Below are positions 177 to 13,591 of a stretch of DNA of 64,000 nucleotides, in pieces. Every line of letters starts with the position of its first letter. Positions within the stretch are counted from its first letter, which is position 1. The notes under the pieces were generated by a model that had not been told where the DNA came from, ran no database searches, and saw only the letters and a program-made list of their open reading frames with translations. Source of the stretch: Bacillus sp. AFS055030 (GTDB lineage Bacteria; Bacillota; Bacilli; Bacillales; Bacillaceae_G); contig NZ_NUGT01000026.1 of the NCBI RefSeq assembly GCF_002574545.1, positions 1 through 64,000 on the forward strand, written 5' to 3'. The position numbers were made by a program, and so were the translations under genes.

Positions 177-1742
177 TTATTTAATTGTTACATCGTTAAT
201 CTCTAGATAGCCTGAAGGACTGATTGAGAAGCCTTTTACGTCTTTTGAGATTGCAGCGACATTTTCGATTACTCTTACAGGAATATATGGTGAATCGTCC
301 ATTTCAATTTCTTGTGCTTTAGCGTAGATTTCTTTGCGTTTTGCTTCGTCTTTTTCTTTTCTTCCAGCATTAATTAAGTCATCAACTTTTGGATTGCTAT
401 AGAAGAATGTATTTCCAGCAGCGCCGCGTGAGTCTGAGTGGAATAGGTTGTACTGATTGTAATCTGCATCTCCTGTTGCGTTTCTCCAGCTAATAATAAA
501 CATTTCTGATTGACCTTTGTTTACTTTTTCAACGAATGAACCATATTCCATCACTTGTACTTTTAAATTAATGCCAATTCCTTTTAATTGTGATTGAATA
601 ACTTCTGCTAAATTTACTCGTTCTTTGCTATCCATCGTTAGGATTGTTGCATCAAATCCATCTGGATAACCTGCTTCTGTTAATAGTTTCTTCGCTTCTT
701 TTAAATTGTAATTGTATGCTTTTAATTGCTCATCATATCCGAATACTTTCGATCCCATTGCTGAATTCGCTTTTTTACCTACATTGTTAAATACACCTTT
801 AATAATCGAGTCCATTTCAACTGCATGAGCGATTGCTTTACGAACACGTACATCATTAAACGGTTCTTTTGTAACATTGAATCCGATATACTCTGTTCCA
901 TACCCTTCACTTCGGTACACTTCCATAGCTGAGGATGATTCAACTTGATTCATAACTGCGATTGGGAGTGGTTCTGCAATTTGAGCTTCTCCTGTTTCAA
1001 TCATTGAAATTCTTGTTGAGTCTTCTGGAACTACCTTGAACTCAACTTTGTCAATCTTTGGTTTTTTCCCCCAGTAATCTTTATTTTGAACTAATGTAAT
1101 TTGTTGACCTGGAGACCATGATTTAAATTTAAAAGGACCTGTTCCATTTGGTTCTTGAATAATATTCTTACCATATTTATCGATTGTTTTGGGGCTAATA
1201 ATTCCACCTTCATGATTTGCTAAAATTGAAAGAAGTGGTGAAAATGGTTCGCTTAAATTAAATTGAACTGTATATTCATCTACTACTTTTACTTCTTTTA
1301 CCATTTTGAAAACGACAGCTCTTGGTGAAGCAACTTTAGGATCTAATAAACGATCAAAGGTTTTCTTTACAGCCTCTGCATTAAATGGTGTACCATCGTG
1401 AAACTTCACATCGTGCCTGAGTTTAAATTCCCAAGTTTTATCATTGATTTGTTTCCATGACTCTGCAAGCATTGGTTGAATTTCATTATCACGATCTCGC
1501 TGGACTAGACCTTCGTAAATTTTATGATGAGTTACGCTTGCTGCATTTATTGTAGACATAAATTGCTGATCTAAATTTTCGGCATCTGATAAACGAGCAA
1601 TTACTAGCGTACTTCCTCCTTTTGAATCACTTGCTTGTCCATTTGCTTTCGTACCTACGTTTTGATTAGATGAACATCCTGTAATTGTGACAGCAGAAAA
1701 TAGTACTAGAAAAAATTTCCCCATTCCTGATTTTAGTTTCAA
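177..1742 (-). CDS. Substrate-binding lipoprotein of a peptide-type ABC transporter (SBP family 5)
   Basis: An extracellular solute-binding protein of the DppA/OppA family (SBP_bac_5), expected to deliver a ligand to the permeases encoded at 6706-8541. A short lipoprotein signal ends in the lipobox ITGC, so the protein should be lipid-anchored on the outer face of the membrane. Family features include the N-terminal GGSTLVIARLSDAENLD segment, KTWEFKLRHDVKFHDGTPFNA and NDVRVRKAIAHA. It is a clear paralogue of the protein at 4937-6493. Start: the Shine-Dalgarno GGGAGG lies only 2 nt from an in-frame GTG (1748) but 8 nt from a TTG (1742), so TTG is preferred. It is last in the minus-strand operon but has its own promoter region (1787-1849). 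The substrate is unknown and need not be a peptide. Confidence 0.9.
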   Translation of the reverse strand: MKLKSGMGKFFLVLFSAVTITGCSSNQNVGTKANGQASDSKGGSTLVIARLSDAENLDQQFMSTINAASVTHHKIYEGLVQRDRDNEIQPMLAESWKQINDKTWEFKLRHDVKFHDGTPFNAEAVKKTFDRLLDPKVASPRAVVFKMVKEVKVVDEYTVQFNLSEPFSPLLSILANHEGGIISPKTIDKYGKNIIQEPNGTGPFKFKSWSPGQQITLVQNKDYWGKKPKIDKVEFKVVPEDSTRISMIETGEAQIAEPLPIAVMNQVESSSAMEVYRSEGYGTEYIGFNVTKEPFNDVRVRKAIAHAVEMDSIIKGVFNNVGKKANSAMGSKVFGYDEQLKAYNYNLKEAKKLLTEAGYPDGFDATILTMDSKERVNLAEVIQSQLKGIGINLKVQVMEYGSFVEKVNKGQSEMFIISWRNATGDADYNQYNLFHSDSRGAAGNTFFYSNPKVDDLINAGRKEKDEAKRKEIYAKAQEIEMDDSPYIPVRVIENVAAISKDVKGFSISPSGYLEINDVTIK

Positions 1743-1786
1743 TTGCACTGCCTCCCTTTTAAAGTTATCTTACAAATATTTATCTA

Positions 1787-1849
1787 ATTATATAAAATAT
1801 TCAGATAATTATTTTTGAATATCTTTACCTGTTTTTTCAGTTTCTTTAC
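1787..1849 (-). promoter_or_regulatory. Promoter and paired direct-repeat operator of the first binding-protein gene
   Basis: Reading toward the gene, two GTAAAGA heptamers (TCTTTAC on the plus strand at 1822-1828 and 1843-1849) lie 21 bp apart, followed by TATAAT (plus-strand 1787-1792). The -35 position has no TTGACA-like hexamer, which suits an activator-dependent promoter. The heptamers have the same spacing and the same distance to the -10 box as those in front of the gene at 4937-6493. Confidence 0.6.
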
Positions 1850-1854
1850 TTTTT

Positions 1855-3351
1855 TCATTTATTTTGCTTTGCAAGTAGTTCATTAATAGCTTCAAGTTTT
1901 TTAAAAGATGGTGGAAATAGATCATTTTCAGGAAGTTGATCATAATCCCTTTCCATATATCCTTTTCTCATCTTATTAAAATACTTTTGGCCTTTTTGTT
2001 TTAATACGTCCATATCAAGATTAGGGATTACTTGATCTTTCATCACAATCCTTCCATTTATAATGGATAGTTTTACATCTCTACCTGACCCACTAATAAA
2101 CATTGTACGAATTGGATCATCAGTAACACCCATATGGAATCCTTCTAAATCAATTGCGATAATATCCGCCTTTGCTCCGACTGCTATTTTCCCGATATCT
2201 TCGCGATTAAGAAATGCCGCTGCTCCTAGAGTAATAGAATTAAAGAAATCAGCGTATGTCGATCCTTCTACTTCTTTTTCTATATATCTTGAGAGCATAC
2301 TAGCAGTGCGTACATTTTGAAAAATATCTGGAGGGAACGTATCAGTACCTAATGCAATATTGATTCCAACTTTTTTATATTTTGCATATGATTCAAGTCC
2401 TTCCCCATGTCTTCCTATAATAAGTGGACAATGGATAACAGTAGTATTTGTTTCTTTCAGAAGAGAAATATCATTATCAATATTGTAATTCGCTCCACTA
2501 TAGCCCGATACAAAATGTGCGTGTGGAATTCCTGTATTTGGGCCTAAAAATCCAAGATTATATAAATATTTAATTGGTGTAACTTTATGTTCTTTTAAAA
2601 TTGTATTAAATTCAAAACTGCCTTGCGCAGCATGGAGCTTGATTGGAACGTTTAATTTGTCACTGTAATATTTTGTTTTGATCAAAATTTCTTTCGTCTG
2701 TGATTCTATTCGTTCTGGAGCTAACATCCCTCTAACCAGTCCATCAAATGCACCATCGAAGGTTTCGATAAACTTTACGGCTCTTTCTAACCCTTCCTCG
2801 CCCGCTGTTTCATCCCAATGAATTTTAACGTTCCCATCTGGCTCGACTACTCTAATTCCAGCTTGATAGCTTGGTCCAAGGTAAATTCTCAACCCTAGTT
2901 TTCCCGCGTGATTCGCTGCAGCTTCTAATTCTTCAAACGTTTCAGCCCAATTTTTGTAAAAAACAGAAGTAATCGGCATAGCAGTCGTAATACCATTTAA
3001 AATAAGTTGAGAATAGGCATATAAAGATTTAAATGCTTCTTCCTCCTCACTCATTAGCTCAGGATGCCCATTTTTTACAAACTCCTCAGACCATAGGAGA
3101 TTTTTTTGTCTATTTGATTTCGCTTCGAAATGCAAAATATCATGATCAATGTCACCTAATGCATTTAAATCAATAAAACCAGGACTAAGGATCGCATTTC
3201 CAACGTCAATTACTTGATCTACTTCTTCTGAATAGTTTTTTCCAACATATAAAATTGAATCATTTTCGTATACAATCTCGGCATTTTCCAATATGACATG
3301 TTCATGTCCATCAAAACCAATTACATATCTTCCCTTTAATTTCGTTTTCAT
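1855..3351 (-). CDS. Amidohydrolase-superfamily protein (chlorohydrolase-like), atypical metal site
   Basis: A 498-residue member of the amidohydrolase superfamily, TRZ/ATZ-deaminase-like branch: an N-terminal beta-sandwich segment, PGFID at 57-61, a barrel with KLHAAQG, HAHFVSG and ALGTDTFPP, and the C-terminal GKIAVGAKADIIAID segment typical of the family. Oddity: where most members carry an HxH metal pair just after PGxID, this protein reads LNALGDIDHD. The usual pair is therefore absent, and DIDH may replace it or the metal site may be altered. Its start lies 30 nt from the stop of the second amidohydrolase gene, in the same operon. It is probably cytosolic and may act on the compound imported by the neighbouring transporter. 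Substrate unknown. Confidence 0.8.
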   Translation of the reverse strand: MKTKLKGRYVIGFDGHEHVILENAEIVYENDSILYVGKNYSEEVDQVIDVGNAILSPGFIDLNALGDIDHDILHFEAKSNRQKNLLWSEEFVKNGHPELMSEEEEAFKSLYAYSQLILNGITTAMPITSVFYKNWAETFEELEAAANHAGKLGLRIYLGPSYQAGIRVVEPDGNVKIHWDETAGEEGLERAVKFIETFDGAFDGLVRGMLAPERIESQTKEILIKTKYYSDKLNVPIKLHAAQGSFEFNTILKEHKVTPIKYLYNLGFLGPNTGIPHAHFVSGYSGANYNIDNDISLLKETNTTVIHCPLIIGRHGEGLESYAKYKKVGINIALGTDTFPPDIFQNVRTASMLSRYIEKEVEGSTYADFFNSITLGAAAFLNREDIGKIAVGAKADIIAIDLEGFHMGVTDDPIRTMFISGSGRDVKLSIINGRIVMKDQVIPNLDMDVLKQKGQKYFNKMRKGYMERDYDQLPENDLFPPSFKKLEAINELLAKQNK

Positions 3352-3381
3352 TTTTTCTCCCTTCGAATTTGAAAATTTTAT

Positions 3382-4860
3382 TTAGTTTTCAACATATCTC
3401 CTCTCGTCAACATAGGCACGGGCATGCCCCCAGAAATACTTAGTAGGTTGCATATATTTTTCTAATCCTGCACGTTTAATCGTTTCAAAAGCTTCTTCAT
3501 TTGCTTCATTTAAAACTGTGCTTTCATGAACGGTTTTTACATCTCTGCCTTCCATAATTAGTTTCCCATCGACAATCACATGATCTACATCATTTGCCAC
3601 TGCTTGAAATACTAATCGATGAACATGCATATACTCTGGAGTCAAATGTGGTTGATGAAGATTAACTGTGATGACATCTGCTTTCTTTCCGATCTCAAGT
3701 GAACCAATTTCATCATCCCAACCTATACATTTTGCTGCATCAATTGTTACCATTTCTAAAAGCTTACCTGGTGGTAAATAATAATAGTCTCTAAGAGCTG
3801 CCTGGTGGACAAACTGTGTTTTTCTCATCGCTTGAAATAAATCAAAACTCGTAGAAGGTGATGTACCATCTGTTGAAATCGCAACAGTTGCTCCCATTTC
3901 AATTAATTCTGTAATTGGTGTGCGTGCATTTACTTGTCCAAAACCTGGTGAAGCACTAATATTTGTACCAGTTTCAGCTAATATTTTGGCTTCGTCGAAT
4001 GAAATTCCTCGACAATGTTGAAGATGAACATCAGGACCTAAGAGCGCATTTTCTTTATCTTGAATTGCTAAATGAATCATTCCACCAAATGCATCTGAGT
4101 GGATTCTTGTATTATATTTTCTAGCAATCTCTCTTATTTTTTTAGCTTGATAAAGATCATGTTGTGTTAACCCATATAGTCGATCTGGAGAAGTCGGATA
4201 GGAAGGATCTACAGATGTTACAATAACGAATGGTGTAATAAAAGCTCTTGTTCGATCATCATTTGCGTGATTCAATGCCTCTATAACTGCTTCTGCCCCT
4301 TTTAGCACTTCTTCATAAGTAACTTCTTTCTCAATTCTTTTCCCATCAACCCATCGACTAAATGAATGTGGCCAAGGTGGGTTACACGGACCAGTACAAA
4401 CTACTTCACGCACACCTACTTCGTTGTAAGCTTTTGCATGGTTTATTGCAAAGATTGGATCATCCGATCTCGGCATTGATCCTAACACACTAACGCCAGT
4501 TGTAATGCCCGCTTTTAATCTTTCAAGTGCAGAAAGCTTCCCTTCGTAATACCAAAAATCGTCCGTTACATAATGCTTATACGTTTTCGTCATAATTGGC
4601 ATCCAAAAATCGATATTCTCCATCGCGATTGTTTTAAACATCGAATGACCACCATGACCATGAACATCTATTAATCCTGGTAAAATACATTGATGACTAC
4701 AATCAATTATTTTTTTCGCCTCATACTTGGTTTTCAAGTTTTCGCTCAAGTCAACGTCGATTATTCTCCCATTGTGAATAGCAACAGAGCCATTTTCAAT
4801 GATTCTTCTTTCTGTGTCCATTGTGATAACAGTTCCATTTACTAATAACAAATCAATCAT
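3382..4860 (-). CDS. Amidohydrolase-superfamily metal-dependent hydrolase or deaminase
   Basis: A 492-residue cytosolic amidohydrolase of the cytosine/guanine-deaminase and atrazine-chlorohydrolase type. The sequence retains the standard metal and catalytic motifs: PGLIDVHGHGGHS with HxH near residues 66-68, HSDAFGG, LQHCRGISFDE and ISTDGTSPS with the late aspartate, then the C-terminal GSLEIGKKADVITVN. An SD of the form GGAGG precedes ATG 4860. It sits between a binding-protein gene and the paralogous amidohydrolase gene, so it is probably the main catabolic enzyme for the imported ligand. Deamination, dechlorination and amide hydrolysis all occur in this family, so the reaction cannot be specified. 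Confidence 0.85.
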   Translation of the reverse strand: MIDLLLVNGTVITMDTERRIIENGSVAIHNGRIIDVDLSENLKTKYEAKKIIDCSHQCILPGLIDVHGHGGHSMFKTIAMENIDFWMPIMTKTYKHYVTDDFWYYEGKLSALERLKAGITTGVSVLGSMPRSDDPIFAINHAKAYNEVGVREVVCTGPCNPPWPHSFSRWVDGKRIEKEVTYEEVLKGAEAVIEALNHANDDRTRAFITPFVIVTSVDPSYPTSPDRLYGLTQHDLYQAKKIREIARKYNTRIHSDAFGGMIHLAIQDKENALLGPDVHLQHCRGISFDEAKILAETGTNISASPGFGQVNARTPITELIEMGATVAISTDGTSPSTSFDLFQAMRKTQFVHQAALRDYYYLPPGKLLEMVTIDAAKCIGWDDEIGSLEIGKKADVITVNLHQPHLTPEYMHVHRLVFQAVANDVDHVIVDGKLIMEGRDVKTVHESTVLNEANEEAFETIKRAGLEKYMQPTKYFWGHARAYVDERRYVEN

Positions 4861-4896
4861 TTTTTTCCTCCTAATGTTAAATTTCTATTTAAAAAC

Positions 4897-4927
4897 TGAA
4901 ACAGCATAAATGAATTATGCTGTTTCA
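4897..4927 (-). terminator. Intra-operon hairpin after the second binding-protein gene
   Basis: A perfect 13-bp stem (TGAAACAGCATAA with TTATGCTGTTTCA) and a 5-nt loop, followed on the minus strand by GTTTTT. It lies between the binding-protein stop and the amidohydrolase start. A leaky terminator or 3'-stabilising hairpin here would give more binding protein than enzyme, as is common in ABC operons. Confidence 0.7.
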
Positions 4928-4936
4928 TTGAATTAC

Positions 4937-6493
4937 TTATTTCACTGTTACATCATCAAGCATTAAATAACTTGCTGGGTTTAACCAAAGCCCTTTAACA
5001 GATGAGCCAGTAACTGCTAAATGCTCATAGTTACGAATAGGAATATACGGTACTTCATCATTTTCGATTTTTTGTGCTTGAGCATATAGTTCTTTACGTT
5101 TTTCACTATCTGATTCTTGTCGAGCTGATTCAATTAATTGATCAACTTTAGGGTTACTGTAGAATGCACTATTTCCTGCTGCACCTTGGGATTTACTGTC
5201 AAATAAGTTAAATTGGTTATAGTCTCCATCACCAGTAGCATTACCCCATCCACCAATTGCAACTTGATGTTCACCTTTTGCCATTGCATCAATATAAGCT
5301 CCGTATTCAACCACTTGGATTTTCACATTAATCCCAATACCTTTTAACTGTGATTGAATAACTTCAGCCATATTTATTCTTTCTTTACGGTCACTAGTTG
5401 TAAGTGTAAATGATAGACCGTCCTTAATACCTGCTTCTTTTAATAGCTTTTTAGATTCATTAATATCGTAATCAAACCCTTTAAGATTTGGATCATATCC
5501 AAATACTTTCGGACTCATTGTTGAATTTGCTTTTGTTCCAACATCGTTATATACGCCTTTAATAATTGAATCTACTTCAATTGCATGTGCAATCGCTTTA
5601 CGGACACGAACATCATCAAATGGTTTTTTCTTAACATTGAAAGTTAAATATTCCACAGCTAGTCCCTCTGTACGGTATAAATCCATTGTGTCAGACGCTT
5701 CGATACGATTGATTTCAGTTACAGGCACTTGATCAGTTACATGCGCTTCACCAGTTTCAATCATTGCTAGTCTTGTAGCATCTTCAGGAACTACTTTAAA
5801 GACTACACCATCAATTTTAGGTTTATTTCCCCAGTAATCTTTATTTTTTTCAATTTTAATTTCTTCTCCTGATTTCCAAGATTTAAATACATAAGGACCA
5901 GTTCCAACTGGATTTCGCCCAATTTTATCATTGTTTTCTTTAATTGATTTTGGACTAATAATACTTCCTTCATTACTCATTAAAATAGATAAAAGTGGAG
6001 CATATGGGTATTTCAAAATAAATTGAACAGTCGTATCATCTACCACTTTAACTTCTTTTATCATTTCAAATTTACCAGCCTGAGGTGAACCAGTTTTTGG
6101 GTCAAGAACTCGATCAAAATTTGTTTTAACTGCATCTGCATTAAATGGTGATCCATCTTGGAACTTAACGCCTTGTCGTAGTTTGAACTCCCAAGTCACA
6201 TTATCTACTTGTTTCCATTCTGTTGCTAAAAGAGGTTGTGGCACCATATTTTTATCTGGTTCAACTAATGTTTCATATACCTTTTCATACACAACGTTTG
6301 CTGATGGTATATCCGTAATAAAATGTGGATCTAATGTAGTCGCATCAGATAGTCTAGCTACGACCAAAGTTCCTCCTGCTTTTGCTTTTGTTCCTGTTGC
6401 ACTACTGCTAGTTTGGTCAGAGGTACACCCTGCAAGTACAGTAGAAATTGTTAATAATGATGCAAATAATACTCCAGCTGTCTTTTTCTTCAT
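4937..6493 (-). CDS. Substrate-binding lipoprotein of a peptide-type ABC transporter (SBP family 5)
   Basis: A second DppA/OppA-family binding protein, paralogous to the one at 177-1742 along its whole length (GGTLVVARLSDATTLDPHF, TWEFKLRQGVKFQDGSPFNA, DDVRVRKAIAHA). The signal peptide begins MKKKTAGVLF and ends at lipobox LAGC, so it is a membrane-anchored lipoprotein of about 518 residues. Start: ATG 6493 has AGGAGG 9 nt upstream; an upstream in-frame extension to 6571 lacks an SD and would bury the signal peptide. First gene of the minus-strand operon, divergent from the permease genes. Two binding proteins for one set of permeases suggest two related ligands or different affinities. Confidence 0.92.
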   Translation of the reverse strand: MKKKTAGVLFASLLTISTVLAGCTSDQTSSSATGTKAKAGGTLVVARLSDATTLDPHFITDIPSANVVYEKVYETLVEPDKNMVPQPLLATEWKQVDNVTWEFKLRQGVKFQDGSPFNADAVKTNFDRVLDPKTGSPQAGKFEMIKEVKVVDDTTVQFILKYPYAPLLSILMSNEGSIISPKSIKENNDKIGRNPVGTGPYVFKSWKSGEEIKIEKNKDYWGNKPKIDGVVFKVVPEDATRLAMIETGEAHVTDQVPVTEINRIEASDTMDLYRTEGLAVEYLTFNVKKKPFDDVRVRKAIAHAIEVDSIIKGVYNDVGTKANSTMSPKVFGYDPNLKGFDYDINESKKLLKEAGIKDGLSFTLTTSDRKERINMAEVIQSQLKGIGINVKIQVVEYGAYIDAMAKGEHQVAIGGWGNATGDGDYNQFNLFDSKSQGAAGNSAFYSNPKVDQLIESARQESDSEKRKELYAQAQKIENDEVPYIPIRNYEHLAVTGSSVKGLWLNPASYLMLDDVTVK

Positions 6494-6571
6494 TGTTTTC
6501 TTCCTCCTCTTAATACATTCCCTATGAATCTCTTGTTCACCATTTTTTATTGAGTACGTAGGCTTATTCAA

Positions 6572-6681
6572 ATTATAAAAAAAAATAAAATTTTATATTT
6601 TCAGAATCTTTACTCGTTTTTTAATTATCTTTACTGCTTTTCTGCATTATATTTACTTCAATTCTAATTTTGAATAAATTT
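6572..6681. promoter_or_regulatory. Divergent promoter region with direct-repeat operator
   Basis: For the minus-strand operon: TATAAT (plus-strand 6572-6577), no good -35 hexamer, and two GTAAAGA heptamers (TCTTTAC on plus at 6607-6613 and 6628-6634) 21 bp apart. A weaker third repeat (TATTTAC) lies at 6650-6656. For the plus-strand transporter operon a weak sigma-A-like pair, TTTACT (6652-6657), 17 nt, TAAATT (6675-6680), is visible. The AraC-type regulator at 11571-12269 is the obvious candidate to bind. Confidence 0.55.
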
Positions 6682-6705: not shown

Positions 6706-7608
6706 ATGAAACCAGAGATTGTATTGAATAACAATGAAATCAAATTAGAAAAAAAAGAATCTCAAAAACTAAAAAGATGGAAAGTATTTTATAAGAAGTT
6801 TAAAAAGAATAAATTGGCATTAGTTGGAGCCTATATTGTACTTTTTTATATTTTAGTAGCTATTTTTGCACCACTCATTTCGCCAAAGGATCCTTTTGCG
6901 ATTGATTTAATGAACAAACTACAACGTCCATCACTAGAACATTGGATGGGAACAGATGATAAAGGAAGAGATATTTTAAGTCGTATCATTTTTGGTAGTC
7001 GTCTTTCAATTTCTGTTGGTTTTGTATCTGTTTTATTTGGAGCAATTTTCGGAATCACTCTTGGTTTGATTGCAGGTTATTACGGGAAATGGGTAGACAC
7101 AATCATCATGAGGGTTGTTGATGTTTTATTAGCATTTCCTGGTATTTTACTAGCACTTGCTATTATTAGTGCACTAGGTCCTAGTCTAATTAATGTAATG
7201 GTTGCTGTTGGTATCTTTTCAATCCCAACGTTTGCTCGAATCGTAAGAGGATCTACGTTATCTGTTAGAAAACTTGAGTATATTGATGCAATTCGTGCAT
7301 TAGGTGCTACTGATGCAACAATCATTTTCAAACACATTTTTCCGAATATTCTTTCACCAATAATTGTCCAAGCTACATTAAAACTTGCTACAGCGATTCT
7401 TTCAGCAGCAGGCTTGTCATATCTCGGATTAGGTGCTCAGCCTCCATCTCCAGAATGGGGCGCAATGTTAAGTAGTGGCCGTGATTATTTATTTACTGCA
7501 CCACATATTGCTTTATTTCCGGGCTTAGCGATTTCGACACTAGTTTTAGGTTTTAATATTTTCGGGGATGGTCTAAGAGATGCTCTTGATCCAAGGATGA
7601 AAAAATAA
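6706..7608 (+). CDS. ABC transporter permease, DppC/OppC type
   Basis: A 300-residue inner-membrane permease. An OppC-type N-terminal cytoplasmic segment and first TM (VGAYIVLFYILVAIFAPLI) are followed by the hallmark GTDDKGRDILSRII and a binding-protein-dependent transport domain with the EAA-loop region AIRALGATDATIIFKHIFPN. The C-terminus reads GDGLRDALDPRMKK, typical of DppC. Start: ATG 6706, with AAGGGGG upstream. First gene of the plus-strand transporter operon. The order here is C then B, the reverse of the common ABCDF order. It pairs with the DppB-type subunit that follows. Confidence 0.93.
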   Translation: MKPEIVLNNNEIKLEKKESQKLKRWKVFYKKFKKNKLALVGAYIVLFYILVAIFAPLISPKDPFAIDLMNKLQRPSLEHWMGTDDKGRDILSRIIFGSRLSISVGFVSVLFGAIFGITLGLIAGYYGKWVDTIIMRVVDVLLAFPGILLALAIISALGPSLINVMVAVGIFSIPTFARIVRGSTLSVRKLEYIDAIRALGATDATIIFKHIFPNILSPIIVQATLKLATAILSAAGLSYLGLGAQPPSPEWGAMLSSGRDYLFTAPHIALFPGLAISTLVLGFNIFGDGLRDALDPRMKK

Positions 7609-7620
7609 GGAGGAAAGTAA

Positions 7621-8541
7621 ATGTTTCTATTTATTGTCAGAAGAATTATACAAACTATTCCAGTTTTACTTGGTGTAAGTTTAGTCGTTTTTTTAATTAT
7701 GCAAATGGTTCCTGGTGATCCAGCCACACTACTTGCTGGAGAAGGTGCTACGAAACAAACAATCGAAATGATTCGTCACCAACTTGGCCTTGATCGACCA
7801 ATCATCATTCAGTATTTCGACTATGTTGTTCATGTACTACAAGGTGATTTTGGCGAATCGCTTCGAAATAACCGTCCAGTATTGGATGAGATTATGATTC
7901 GTTTACCTATTACAATTGAACTTGCATTAGCTAGTATTTTCATTACTGTCGTACTTGGTATGCTTGCTGGAATTATATCAGCAACTAAACAGTATTCCGC
8001 AGCTGATATTACAATTATGATTGTCGCTTTACTTGGAATCTCTTTACCTAGTTTCTGGTTTGGTTTAATGCTAATCTACTTCTTTTCAGTTAACCTTCAT
8101 ATCTTTCCAGTTGCTGGTTGGGGAACGTTTAAACATATGGTTCTACCCGCATTAACATTAGGTGCAGGTGGTGCTGCAATTGTAGCTAGGATGACTAGAT
8201 CAAGTATGTTAGAAGTTGTTCGTCAAGACTATATGCGTACAGCAAGAGCAAAAGGTTTAAAGGAACATATCATTATTTATAAACATGGTCTAAAAAATGC
8301 ATTAATTCCAGTAATTACTGTTGTTGGTCTACAATTTGGTGCATTACTTGGTGGTACCGTTTTAACAGAGTCAGTTTTTGCAATTAATGGGCTTGGTAGA
8401 TTAATTGTTGATGCGATTAGAACAAGAGATTTACCTATGGTTCAAGGTGGCGTTTTAATCGCTTCAGTTATCTTTGTATTTATGAATCTAGCTGTTGATA
8501 TTCTCTACCGTTACTTTAATAAACGAGTTGACTTGAATTAA
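7621..8541 (+). CDS. ABC transporter permease, DppB/OppB type
   Basis: A 306-residue DppB-type permease. It begins MFLFIVRRIIQTIPVLLGVS and carries the family segments MVPGDPATLLAG, QLGLDRPIIIQYFDYV and GDFGESLRNNRPV. The EAA loop is TARAKGLKEHIIIYKHGLKN, followed by the usual C-terminal TM segments ending in YRYFNKRVDLN. A strong SD (AAGGAGG) precedes the ATG, and the gene starts 12 nt after the upstream permease. Together the two permeases should form the membrane channel for both binding proteins. Confidence 0.94.
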   Translation: MFLFIVRRIIQTIPVLLGVSLVVFLIMQMVPGDPATLLAGEGATKQTIEMIRHQLGLDRPIIIQYFDYVVHVLQGDFGESLRNNRPVLDEIMIRLPITIELALASIFITVVLGMLAGIISATKQYSAADITIMIVALLGISLPSFWFGLMLIYFFSVNLHIFPVAGWGTFKHMVLPALTLGAGGAAIVARMTRSSMLEVVRQDYMRTARAKGLKEHIIIYKHGLKNALIPVITVVGLQFGALLGGTVLTESVFAINGLGRLIVDAIRTRDLPMVQGGVLIASVIFVFMNLAVDILYRYFNKRVDLN

Positions 8542-8553
8542 GGAGGTACTACG

Positions 8554-9582
8554 ATGAAAAAGCAATTTGATGAAACAATTCTTGAGGTTAAAAATCTACA
8601 AACCCACTTTTATACAGATGAAGGAATAAGTAAAGCCGTGAATGGAATTAGCTTTAAATTAAAAAAAGGTGAAACACTTGGAATAGTAGGAGAATCTGGA
8701 AGTGGTAAAAGTATTACATCATTATCCCTTTTACGATTAATCCCTTCCCCTCCAGGAAAAATAGCTGGTGGTAGTATCTTTTTTAAAGGTGAAGACTTAC
8801 TAGCAAAAACAGAAAAGCAAATGCGTTCGATTCGAGGTAATGAAATTTCAATGATCTTTCAGGAGCCTATGACATCGTTAAACCCTGTTTATTCAGCAGG
8901 CGAACAAATTGCAGAAGCGATTCGTCTTCACCAAAAATTAAGCAAAAAGGAAGCTTGGGATAAAGCAGTTGAAATGCTGCGACTTGTAGGAATCCCTTCT
9001 CCTGAAAAACGTGCAAAGCAAGAACCACATGAGCTTAGTGGCGGAATGAGACAAAGGGTTATGATCGCAATGGCACTTGCTTGTCATCCAGAAGTGCTAA
9101 TTGCAGATGAGCCGACTACCGCTCTAGATGTGACAATTCAAGCTCAAATTCTGGATTTAATTAAATCACTACAAAAAGATTTAGGTACAGCCGTAATATT
9201 AATCACGCATGATTTAGGCGTTGTTTATGAAACTTGCGATCGAGTGGCTGTCATGTACGCTGGTAGAATGGTTGAATATACTTCAGCAAAGGAACTTTTT
9301 GATAACCCTAAGCACCCATATACAATCGGGTTATTAAACTCTCTTCCACGTTTGGATATGGATCAAGAAGAATTAACAACAATTCCTGGTACTGTACCTA
9401 GTCCATTTAATATGCCTAAAGGCTGTAGTTTTGCGCCACGCTGTGCACATGCAAAGGATATATGTCATCAATCAGTGCCTGATTTACTAACAATTGACAA
9501 AAATACTGAAGTCAGCTGTTGGATGTATACATCACAATGGGAGACAGATCATACCATCAAAGAGAAAGTAGGGATTGAATAA
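8554..9582 (+). CDS. Peptide-type ABC transporter ATP-binding protein, DppD/OppD type
   Basis: A 342-residue ATPase. Visible motifs are Walker [10 protein letters not shown]-loop [10 protein letters not shown], signature [10 protein letters not shown], Walker [13 protein letters not shown] and switch histidine ITHDLG. The C-terminal oligopeptide extension contains [12 protein letters not shown], part of the cysteine cluster found in DppD/OppD. It overlaps the next ATPase gene by 1 nt (TAATGG), so the two are translationally coupled and probably act as a heterodimer powering the permeases. Confidence 0.95.
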
Positions 9583-10568
9583 TGGCATTGCAACTAGTGG
9601 ATAAAAAAATACTACTTAATGTAGATCATTTAAAACAATACTTTCCAATAAAAGGTGGCGTTTTAGGAAGAACGGTTAATCACGTAAAAGCTGTAGACGA
9701 TATTAGCTTCAACATTTACGAGGGAGAAACTTTAAGTATAGTTGGAGAATCTGGTTGTGGTAAGTCTACTACTGGTAGAGCCATTCTAAGATTAGACGAG
9801 CCTACTAGTGGAAGCATCCATTTTAAAGATAAAGATTTATTAAGCTTAGGAAAAAAAGAAATGCGTAAAATAAGAAAGGATCTACAAGTAATCTTCCAAG
9901 ATCCATTTGCATCACTTAATCCTAGACAAACAATTGGAGAAATTTTAGGTGAAGCTTTAGCCATTCAAAATGTCGTTCCAAAAGAAGAACGTAAAGCTAG
10001 AATTGAGGAACTGTTAGGGCATGTCGGGTTAAGACCAGAAGCTATGGAGCGTTATCCTCATGAATTTAGTGGTGGTCAACGTCAACGTGTTGGAATTGCC
10101 CGTGCACTTGCAGTTGATCCAAAACTAATCATTTGTGATGAAGCAGTATCTGCTCTAGATGTTTCAATTCAAGCTCAAGTATTAAATTTATTAAAATCAT
10201 TACAGAAAAAATTCTCACTTACCTTCCTTTTCATCTCACATGATTTAGGTGTAGTTAGACATATTTCTGACCGAGTAATGGTTATGTATTTAGGAAAAAT
10301 TGTTGAGATTGCCGATAAAAAATCTATTTTCGAAAATCCGCAACATCCTTATACGCGTGCACTATTATCTGCTATTCCTGTACCAAACCCGGTACATCAA
10401 AGAGAAAGAATCATCTTAACAGGAGATGTACCTTCTCCAATCAATCCTCCAAGCGGCTGTCGTTTTCACACAAGATGCCCTTTTGCGATTGATATTTGCA
10501 AAACAAGAGTACCTGAATTAAAAATATCAGAGCAAAATCATCAAGTTGCTTGTCACATAATTGATTAA
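9582..10568 (+). CDS. Peptide-type ABC transporter ATP-binding protein, DppF/OppF type
   Basis: A 328-residue partner ATPase. Walker A is GESGCGKS, Q-loop FQDPFASLNPRQ, signature EFSGGQRQRVG, Walker B LIICDEAVSALD, and the H-loop ISHDLG. The Walker B reads DEAVSALD rather than DEPTSALD, a common variant in DppF. The C-terminus has the conserved GCRFHTRCPFAIDIC. Last gene of the transporter operon; about 235 nt separate it from the histidine kinase. Confidence 0.95.
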   Translation: MALQLVDKKILLNVDHLKQYFPIKGGVLGRTVNHVKAVDDISFNIYEGETLSIVGESGCGKSTTGRAILRLDEPTSGSIHFKDKDLLSLGKKEMRKIRKDLQVIFQDPFASLNPRQTIGEILGEALAIQNVVPKEERKARIEELLGHVGLRPEAMERYPHEFSGGQRQRVGIARALAVDPKLIICDEAVSALDVSIQAQVLNLLKSLQKKFSLTFLFISHDLGVVRHISDRVMVMYLGKIVEIADKKSIFENPQHPYTRALLSAIPVPNPVHQRERIILTGDVPSPINPPSGCRFHTRCPFAIDICKTRVPELKISEQNHQVACHIID

Positions 10569-10768: not shown

Positions 10769-10805
10769 TTTCAAAAAAAATTAAAAATACTATTTGAGGT
10801 TCTTC

Positions 10806-11555
10806 ATGCTTAGTTACGAGGGATTTACTTTACTTATTATGCTATTTATTTTAGCTCCTATTATGGGAGCTATTGCTTTATTATTTTTGTTTATCTTTGA
10901 AAAAAGAATTGATTTACTTGAAAATAAAAATAAAGAAATTCAGTTAGAGCATGCATTACAAGAAGCTCAATACAATCAATTAAATCAGCAAATTCAACCG
11001 CACTTTTTATTTAATACACTTAATGTCATATTAAGCTTAGCGCGTTTAAATCGAACTTCGGAATTAATTCGAGCACTAGAAACGTTCTCTCAATTTTTAA
11101 AATTTAAATATAAATCATCAGAGCCCTTAATTCCGTTAAATCAAGAAATCCAATATACTCAATATTATTTAGATATTCAAAATCTACGGTTTGGAGAACG
11201 TCTTAAAACTCAGTTAGATTGTCCAAAAGATTTATATAATGCGCAAGTTCCCCCTTTTATTTTGCAAACCTTAGTAGAAAATTCATTTAAACATGGTTTA
11301 GAAAAAAAGGTTGGAGAGGCCCTACTTCATATTCGATTTTATCAAGATTCTGAGCTAGTCTGTTTAGAAGTAATTGATAATGGTTTAATGGGAAAGACGA
11401 ATTCATTTTCTAATCAAGAAGGCCATGGATTAGACAATATAAAAAAGAGATTGCAACTATATTTCGGAAACAGTGGACATGTACTGATTACTTCAAATGA
11501 ATCAGGAACAAATGTTAAAGTCGTTTGGCCACTGATCAATGACTCTTTAAAGTAA
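10806..11555 (+). CDS. Sensor histidine kinase, LytS/YesM type, with a minimal sensor region
   Basis: A 249-residue kinase with one N-terminal TM segment (about residues 7-31), a short coiled linker, then the His_kinase domain with QIQPHFLFNTLN (phospho-acceptor His66) and an HATPase domain (LVENSFKHGLE N-box, VIDNGLMG, GHGLDNIKKRL G-box). There is no extracellular sensor domain, so it must sense through the membrane or through a partner. Start: ATG 10806, with GAGGT about 7 nt upstream. It is followed 15 nt later by its response regulator gene and then by a 12-TM transporter gene, a plausible sensing partner. Confidence 0.88.
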   Translation: MLSYEGFTLLIMLFILAPIMGAIALLFLFIFEKRIDLLENKNKEIQLEHALQEAQYNQLNQQIQPHFLFNTLNVILSLARLNRTSELIRALETFSQFLKFKYKSSEPLIPLNQEIQYTQYYLDIQNLRFGERLKTQLDCPKDLYNAQVPPFILQTLVENSFKHGLEKKVGEALLHIRFYQDSELVCLEVIDNGLMGKTNSFSNQEGHGLDNIKKRLQLYFGNSGHVLITSNESGTNVKVVWPLINDSLK

Positions 11556-11570
11556 AGGAGGGAAAATAAA

Positions 11571-12269
11571 GTGAATGTTTTATTAGTAGATGATGAACCA
11601 TTAGAGCTTGAACAGATGGAATATTTGATAAAAAATAAGTTCCCATTATGGAAGTTCTATAAAGCCGCTGATGCATGTCAAGCAATGGCAATTAATCAAA
11701 ATCATAAAATTAACATTGCGTTTTTAGATATTAATCTACCTGGCCGTTCTGGACTAGAGTTTGGTGAAGAACTTCGAGCTCAAAATAAAGACGTCGATAT
11801 TATTATGGTTACAGCATATCAAAGTTTTGATTATGCTCAGCAGTCAATCCGAATCGGCGTTCTTGATTATTTAACAAAACCAATCATTGAAAGTGAACTA
11901 GATAAAGTGTTATCTAAATATAGTGATACCGATACATCAAATCAATATTCTAGTTTAATCCATCAAACTCTATTATATATTCATGAGCATTTCGCTGAAA
12001 AACTGTCTCTTTCTGACGTAGCCAGAGAAGTTCACACGAATCATACTTATTTAAGTAGAAAATTTCACGAAGAAGTCGGCGTGTCATTTTCAGAATATTT
12101 AATAGACTATAGAATACAAGCTGCCAAGCGCTATTTAACAAATAATCCAAATTGGAACATATCCGATGTAGCAGAAAACTCAGGCTTTAATAGCCAGCAT
12201 TACTTTAGTACTTTATTTCGCAAAATTGAGGGCATTACTCCAAAAGAGTATCGTGAGAAAGGAAAATAA
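11571..12269 (+). CDS. Response regulator, receiver plus AraC-type DNA-binding domain (YesN type)
   Basis: A 232-residue regulator. The receiver domain has the acidic pair DDE at 7-9, phospho-acceptor Asp53 in FLDINLPG, the conserved Thr in MVTAYQSF and Lys in LTKP. The C-terminal two-helix-turn-helix AraC domain spans about 130-232 (LSLSDVAREVHTNHTYLSRKF; ISDVAENSGFNSQHYFSTLFRK; GITPKEYRE). GTG start with SD AAAGGAGGG. AraC-type regulators bind paired direct repeats about two helical turns apart, which matches the 21-bp repeats at 1822-1849 and 6607-6634. I infer that these are its targets. Confidence 0.92.
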   Translation: MNVLLVDDEPLELEQMEYLIKNKFPLWKFYKAADACQAMAINQNHKINIAFLDINLPGRSGLEFGEELRAQNKDVDIIMVTAYQSFDYAQQSIRIGVLDYLTKPIIESELDKVLSKYSDTDTSNQYSSLIHQTLLYIHEHFAEKLSLSDVAREVHTNHTYLSRKFHEEVGVSFSEYLIDYRIQAAKRYLTNNPNWNISDVAENSGFNSQHYFSTLFRKIEGITPKEYREKGK

Positions 12270-12271
12270 CA

Positions 12272-13591
12272 GTGAATTCACGTTCATTTAGAGAATACGT
12301 ACAAGGTCCTATACAAATTGGAATGGGAATGGGAATTATTTCTCTCTTGGCACGTTGGATAACAGGAACTACGATATTATCTTCGCCAGAATCAATGATT
12401 AAATATGGTGTATTTGGTGGAATCGGCTATGCATTTTTAGGTGCGATTGCTTTATTTGTATTTAGTTTTATTGGGAAAAAGGTTCGACAGGAGTACCCTG
12501 ATGGTTTAACAATTGGAGATTATTTGAAGAAAAAACTACATCCACTTGGTTATTGGATCATGATTTGTATTTTACTATTTACTAGTTTACACATATTATA
12601 TATTCAATCGATGACGGCATCTACTTTATTTCATTTTCTTTTTAATTTACCATTGTACATCGAAATATTCATCTTTATAACCTTTTGTGTACTTTTTGCA
12701 GGGTTTGGTGGATTAAAAATAATCCATGGATTAGCAGGAATCCAGGTTATAACTATGTTTGCAGCGGCAATTTTAATTCCGTTGTATTTTTTCGTAAAAG
12801 AGGGTGTTCAACCAGTATATGATGGGATTAAATTATACCATCCATACATGTTAGTCATTGATCATTATGATTTATGGGGTTTTTTATTTTCAGGCTTATT
12901 AGTTGGATTTGGTCAGTTTTTCTTTGACATTACTTCATGGCACCGATTATTTATGATTGAATCGAAAAAACTTCCTTTAACCTTCTCAATATCCGGGTTA
13001 ATATGGTGTATTTTCCCACTTTCATTTTCATGCCTTTTTATTATTGTTATATTTACTGGTGGATTTACAGATATTCAATCAATATTAGTTGGTTTAGCAA
13101 ATAAAATTACAACACCATTCTTTTTTATACTTTTTGTTTTATGTGTTTTTAATGCGATTACCTCAACATTTGGTGCAGTTTTACATTCGCTTGCTAGTTT
13201 AATCATTATCAATATAATCGAGCCAATTCACAAGATCAATAATGATCAAAAAAAAATAAAACTTGCTTATCTTCTATCCGTGATCATTGGTGCGATTATC
13301 TTTTTTGCTACACTTATTCAATCAAAAAAAATGATAGAACTTTTATTTTACTCAGGAAATGTATATTCTGCATTGCTATTTCCAATTTTAGTTATTGTCT
13401 TTAGTAAACGTAAAGTTGGTAATTATATTCCAATTAGTATTGTCATCAGTATTATCCTTTCATATATCGTTCAGCCTTATGTTGGTAAATTTCAAAGCAT
13501 TTGGTTAAGTTTATTATTTTCAATTGTGATTATCATTTTTGGTTTTACAATCCAAATTTTTAGCAAGAAAAAATCAGTAAATATGTCATAA
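12272..13591 (+). CDS. SSS-like 12-TM membrane transporter
   Basis: A 439-residue integral membrane protein with about 12 predicted TM segments, resembling sodium:solute symporter or related LeuT-fold permeases. The first helix has the broken, glycine-rich pattern IQIGMGMGIISLLARWITG, and the middle carries FGGLKIIHGLAGIQ. It starts (GTG) 2 nt after the response regulator stop, so it is in the same operon as the kinase. Possible roles: uptake of a ligand of the same pathway, or a co-sensor for the kinase, which has no input domain of its own. Family assignment is tentative. Confidence 0.7.
   Translation: MNSRSFREYVQGPIQIGMGMGIISLLARWITGTTILSSPESMIKYGVFGGIGYAFLGAIALFVFSFIGKKVRQEYPDGLTIGDYLKKKLHPLGYWIMICILLFTSLHILYIQSMTASTLFHFLFNLPLYIEIFIFITFCVLFAGFGGLKIIHGLAGIQVITMFAAAILIPLYFFVKEGVQPVYDGIKLYHPYMLVIDHYDLWGFLFSGLLVGFGQFFFDITSWHRLFMIESKKLPLTFSISGLIWCIFPLSFSCLFIIVIFTGGFTDIQSILVGLANKITTPFFFILFVLCVFNAITSTFGAVLHSLASLIIINIIEPIHKINNDQKKIKLAYLLSVIIGAIIFFATLIQSKKMIELLFYSGNVYSALLFPILVIVFSKRKVGNYIPISIVISIILSYIVQPYVGKFQSIWLSLLFSIVIIIFGFTIQIFSKKKSVNMS

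Follow-up and report, generated by a model that had tools for sequence, protein, structure and literature searches.

In the Gottfriedia-type genome of Bacillus sp. AFS055030, whose nearest named relatives are Gottfriedia and Bacillus strains, the genes for two family-5 solute-binding proteins are each preceded by a pair of direct heptamer repeats at a fixed distance from a -10 hexamer, and a similar arrangement heads a third operon on another contig. It is very likely, as judged from comparative genomics, that the paired heptamers are half-site cores for an AraC-type response regulator, which would activate SBP2, SBP1, and the third operon. The window (the whole stretch of DNA analysed, 64,000 nucleotides) contains the following genes of the locus:

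177-1748, minus strand: SBP1, family-5 extracellular solute-binding lipoprotein (SBP_bac_5, E 1e-108)
1855-3351, minus strand: AH1, amidohydrolase of the chlorohydrolase family PRK06151 (NCBIfam NF004801, 640 bits, above cut-off)
3382-4860, minus strand: AH2, TRZ/ATZ-like amidohydrolase (Amidohydro_1, E 8e-31)
4897-4927, minus strand: terminator-like hairpin between SBP2 and AH2
4937-6493, minus strand: SBP2, family-5 solute-binding lipoprotein (SBP_bac_5, E 2e-108)
6706-7608, plus strand: Opp/Dpp-type permease, C subunit, divergent from SBP2
7621-8541, plus strand: Opp/Dpp-type permease, B subunit
8554-9582, plus strand: ABC ATPase, OppD-like
9582-10568, plus strand: ABC ATPase, OppF-like (reading frame; order conserved in relatives)
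10794-11555, plus strand: histidine kinase (PF06580) with one transmembrane helix and no sensor domain
11571-12269, plus strand: response regulator with receiver and AraC-type HTH (PF00072, PF00165/PF12833), the proposed activator
12272-13591, plus strand: SSF (sodium:solute symporter) family protein with 12 predicted transmembrane helices, the proposed co-sensor

The same succession of genes recurs in Gottfriedia, Bacillus sp. SD075, Rossellomorea, Peribacillus, Metasolibacillus, Brevibacillus, and others; among these relatives the identity of the regulator falls as low as 43%. The true start of SBP1 is probably the TTG at 1742-1740, two codons past the listed GTG (both within 1740-1748), since relatives carry an ATG at the position of the TTG. 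Because of the terminator-like hairpin at 4897-4927, the expression of AH2 and AH1 may rely on read-through or on a promoter of their own.

The preliminary description of this DNA had placed the heptamer TCTTTAC at 1822, 1843, 6607, and 6628, and all four positions are borne out by the sequence. Read on the minus strand, the pattern GTAAAGA-N14-GTAAAGA-N29-TATAAT precedes both SBP1 and SBP2. The hexamer appears as ATTATA at 1787-1792 and 6572-6577, and the identical geometry claimed for the two promoters holds, as 29 nucleotides separate TATAAT from the near heptamer in both. The reported lack of a -35 element was also confirmed: a sigma-70-type promoter with a -35 was not found for either -10 hexamer. 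The shared sequence YYGTTTTTT between the heptamers, described as filler, is real, but it is more convincingly explained as the second half of a half-site, as an A-tract follows both heptamers and is kept in other genera. The promoter elements are thus listed with half-sites of 18 bp:

1787-1792, minus strand: TATAAT, -10 of the SBP1 promoter, invariant in the genus
1811-1828, minus strand: proximal half-site of the SBP1 promoter, GTAAAGATATTCAAAAAT, in the -35 region
1832-1849, minus strand: distal half-site of the SBP1 promoter, GTAAAGAAACTGAAAAAA, 21 bp upstream of its proximal partner
6572-6577, minus strand: TATAAT, -10 of the SBP2 promoter, invariant in the genus
6596-6613, minus strand: proximal half-site of the SBP2 promoter, GTAAAGATTCTGAAAATA, in the -35 region
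6617-6634, minus strand: distal half-site of the SBP2 promoter, GTAAAGATAATTAAAAAA

Two half-sites in direct repeat with 21-bp spacing are found in each of the three Gottfriedia promoters as well as in relatives. The proximal half-site covers the -35 position of promoters with a weak or no -35 and a good -10, and its A-tract falls where the -35 would be. The exact heptamer pair with 21-bp spacing occurs just twice in the window, at the SBP1 and SBP2 promoters, and these two copies are the sole ones in the 4.39-Mb Gottfriedia genome. When up to two mismatches were allowed in a genome scan, the pair was found at background level (171 matches versus 250 for a reversed control pattern); the heptamer pair taken alone is therefore weak evidence, and this relaxed pair was dropped as a search pattern for the regulon. 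The background was removed by adding the A-tracts of the half-sites and TATAAT to the pattern. The heptamer pair together with TATAAT at N29 matches seven places in the genome with up to three mismatches, among which a third real one stands out. The genome scan proposed earlier thereby turned up a third target, which encodes amidohydrolases:

G000:C44:89297-89359 (L148:10298-10360): third operator, a match to the combined pattern on another contig

This operator heads genes for three amidohydrolases, an EamA transporter, and an NCS2 uracil/xanthine permease. The amidohydrolases belong to the PRK06846 subfamily (AtzC/cytosine-deaminase-like), and their nearest solved structures are the N-isopropylammelide isopropylaminohydrolase AtzC and then cytosine deaminase. 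In other Gottfriedia genomes, a single contig carries SBP1 with the third operon immediately downstream, so C44 is probably the left-hand neighbour of the window's contig. The majority of the relatives examined carry similar amidohydrolases behind the binding protein in one operon, whereas in Gottfriedia they are separate and have their own operator. Peribacillus, Rossellomorea, and others carry amidohydrolases with similar N-termini behind the binding protein, all under the one operator of the latter and in some cases joined by an EamA gene, and in L178 and L185 the amidohydrolases behind the binding protein were confirmed by tblastn. In Brevibacillus, three such amidohydrolases stand directly behind the operator, and a family-5 binding protein was not found in the locus. 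The operator thus stays with the genes where the operon has been divided.

In Brevibacillus formosus, an operator (L065:17636-17698) was also observed before a family-1 binding protein gene that is followed by two probable permease genes; it was not found in the loci of two sister species.

Whether orthologous promoters keep the paired heptamers had been set beforehand as a test, and the claim survived it both in the genus and in other families. The heptamers and TATAAT are present without any change in both promoters of Gottfriedia and of Bacillus sp. SD075, G199, and G288. In the genus together with three near relatives, none of the 20 core positions varies, whereas the two promoters vary at 10 and 15 of their 43 other positions (one-sided Fisher 0.015 and 0.001). 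In other families the motif is recognisable with the same spacings of 21 and 29. A 40-nucleotide profile was trained on sites of the genus only and run over the whole 20-kb loci of other genera, where the promoter before the binding protein or first amidohydrolase came out as the best or second-best site of each transporter-carrying locus. TATAAT is nearly always found 29 nucleotides from the proximal heptamer in these genera (GATAAT in Brevibacillus), while the first heptamer is often GTCAAAA. The extended half-site has a consensus of about GTAAAGATANTTRAAAA, and the information content is focused on the -10 and on the heptamer and A-tract of each half-site.

These data bear on the explanation that the promoters are alike simply because the paralogues SBP1 and SBP2, which are adjacent and 56% identical, inherited an ancestral promoter whose repeats have no regulatory role. 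Against such an origin, just the heptamers and the -10 are fixed as blocks within the genus while the rest varies, and the same operator stands before non-homologous genes, namely the amidohydrolases of C44 and Brevibacillus and the family-1 binding protein of L065. As the Brevibacillus operator precedes amidohydrolases instead of a family-5 binding protein, the operator is no by-product of the SBP duplication. Paralogy as the cause of the likeness is thus largely refuted, and we regard it as extremely improbable.

The pairing of the operator with the response regulator was followed across 300 genomes of the order (motif with up to two mismatches; regulator at E <= 1e-50). The motif was found in 25 genomes and the regulator in 38; both were present in 24, the motif only in 1, the regulator only in 14, and neither in 261. 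In other words, the regulator is present in 24 of the 25 motif genomes, and the motif in 1 of the 262 regulator-free genomes. The association has a Fisher p of 1e-24, or 3e-17 outside the genus, values to be read with the relatedness of the genomes in mind, as these are not independent. The co-occurrence is partly linkage because the best operators adjoin the regulator and the motif generally sits near it. The motif-negative regulator carriers with the transporter that were inspected (L181, L184, L186, L110, and L111) have a degenerate site with the same spacing, and L109, L182, and L183, which have the regulator and no motif, are without the transporter locus. The one motif-only genome (G003) is an 800-contig assembly in which the transporter contig stops before the kinase, and it was rejected as a counter-example because of this likely assembly gap. 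The match in G037 has a broken -10 and was taken as chance. The helix GF[NS]SQHYFS of the second helix-turn-helix (HTH2) is common to nearly all carriers of a strong motif and altered in L110, L111, and L109; L106 and L108, however, have the motif with changed recognition-helix residues, which counts against the pairing. Taken together, conservation, co-occurrence, and the third target give good comparative support to the earlier proposal that the regulator would activate both binding-protein genes.

Near regulator homologues without an Opp locus, another direct repeat, TTGCAAA, with 21-bp spacing was observed (L109:11145 and L182:5302).

The operator could also be real and yet be bound by another regulator, either a different AraC-family protein or CodY, with the local regulator having its targets elsewhere. 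AraC-family proteins are common in the carrier genomes, the genome contains a codY gene, and several of the promoters, including that of SBP1, have a CodY-like palindrome in the -35/-10 spacer:

1796-1810, minus strand: CodY-box-like palindrome AATTATCTGAATATT in the SBP1 spacer, with two mismatches to AATTTTCWGAAAATT

Shuffled spacers rarely match the CodY box as well as the SBP1 spacer does (shuffle fraction 0.001). The box has a fixed position, and one is likewise seen in related promoters of L108, G159, G213, and G065; it is absent from the spacers of SBP2 and the third operon. The motif, on the other hand, tracks the local response regulator across the order, and the CodY-like box is distinct from the heptamers and missing in many operator promoters. 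In addition, codY is presumably present in motif-negative Bacillales as well, which counts against CodY as the protein that binds the operator. Binding by another regulator is therefore distinctly unlikely. CodY control of some of the promoters would be plausible. The central base of the box in the SBP1 spacer switches between A and T among species, like the W of the CodY consensus.

A further question is whether binding by the regulator leads to repression, or whether its principal target is the divergent permease operon and not SBP2. At the SBP2 promoter, where the operator is shared by two divergent genes, a third half-site lies 22 bp further upstream, which the preliminary description had missed:

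6650-6656, minus strand: GTAAATA, core of the third half-site

With up to one mismatch, this third half-site is present in 10 of 17 divergent promoters (four of them from Gottfriedia or near relatives) and, at this distance, in 0 of 8 promoters that are SBP1-type or otherwise non-divergent, and it may serve the permease promoter. Repression, however, sits poorly with a proximal half-site that ends at the -35 position of a promoter with no -35 and a good -10, which is the layout of class II activation, and neither SBP1 nor the third operon has a divergent gene that is obviously served by the operator. We thus hold repression or a main action on the permease operon to be very unlikely.

Activation by the local regulator would proceed as follows. 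The neighbouring kinase, its presumed partner, would phosphorylate the regulator, which would recognise two tandem 18-bp half-sites 21 bp apart with the heptamers as their cores and, once phosphorylated, occupy both on a single face of the helix. The proximal half-site would replace the missing -35, and the regulator would recruit RNA polymerase in the manner of class II activators of the AraC family. The activated targets would be SBP2, SBP1, and the third operon with its three amidohydrolases, EamA transporter, and NCS2 nucleobase permease, and the regulon would take up a compound and then hydrolyse or deaminate it. In E. coli, class II activation by AraC at araI1-I2 and by RhaS uses two direct half-sites of about 17 bp at a 21-bp spacing, of which the proximal one overlaps the -35. 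The Gottfriedia promoters resemble these in the spacing of the tandem half-sites and in the position of the proximal one at the -35. AraC and RhaS are one-component sugar sensors, whereas in Gottfriedia the DNA-binding domain is linked to a receiver.

Work on Caldicellulosiruptor reported similar tandem repeats ahead of promoters for two-component regulators of the AraC type (PMC8579813). Like the YesN-like regulators of C. bescii inferred there, the Gottfriedia regulator has an AraC-type domain, targets that include binding-protein-dependent transporters, and tandem repeats suggesting activation. The C. bescii targets concern sugar uptake and glycosidases, whereas those in Gottfriedia concern family-5 (Opp/Dpp) uptake and amidohydrolases; the Gottfriedia system is further set apart by a kinase without a sensor domain and by the SSF transporter in the operon. 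XydS/R of Clostridium cellulolyticum includes an AraC-type response regulator that was shown to bind and control a local hemicellulase cluster (PMC3572039). Gottfriedia likewise combines such a regulator, with predicted binding, and a local gene cluster, but the targets of XydS/R are hemicellulases and its binding consensus is unresolved. The preliminary description had called the regulon undescribed, and no description of it was found in the open-licence papers searched; it ranks as a new regulon of an established type.

The kinase has 253 amino acids and one transmembrane helix that runs straight into the catalytic part, and this layout, at about 250 amino acids, is alike in all relatives inspected. 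As it is without a sensor domain and an SSF protein is encoded in the same operon, this co-encoded transporter may act as the sensor. Fusions of an SSF domain and a kinase are known from CbrA, CrbS, and RpuS (PMC7918813, PMC9100948), with which Gottfriedia shares the association of a sodium/solute symporter fold with a histidine kinase. Unlike in these proteins, no SSF (SSS/SLC5) domain of the CbrA type was found fused to the kinase; the transporter has a separate, co-encoded gene, and the kinase belongs to the PF06580 type. No description of a pair of separate SSF transporter and kinase was found in the open-licence papers searched. A wider scheme combines a kinase that reads the occupancy of the separate SSF protein, an AraC-type response regulator activating scattered operons that take up and deaminate N-heterocycles, and a CodY override of some promoters through the box between operator and -10; we put it forward tentatively, as possible though somewhat doubtful. 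The sensorless kinase beside an SSF transporter does offer a testable case of a transporter as sensor.

For this conserved system of Bacillales and Brevibacillus, for which the papers searched gave no described function, a defined operator can now be named together with a candidate regulator and a short list of genes, and the operator can be used to find more targets, thereby narrowing the substrate.

In one further locus, a second operator with three mismatches was observed at L154:7710-7772 (G065:C12:25709-25771), upstream of another Opp-type transporter operon, where it adjoins a gene that resembles creatininase as judged by eye.
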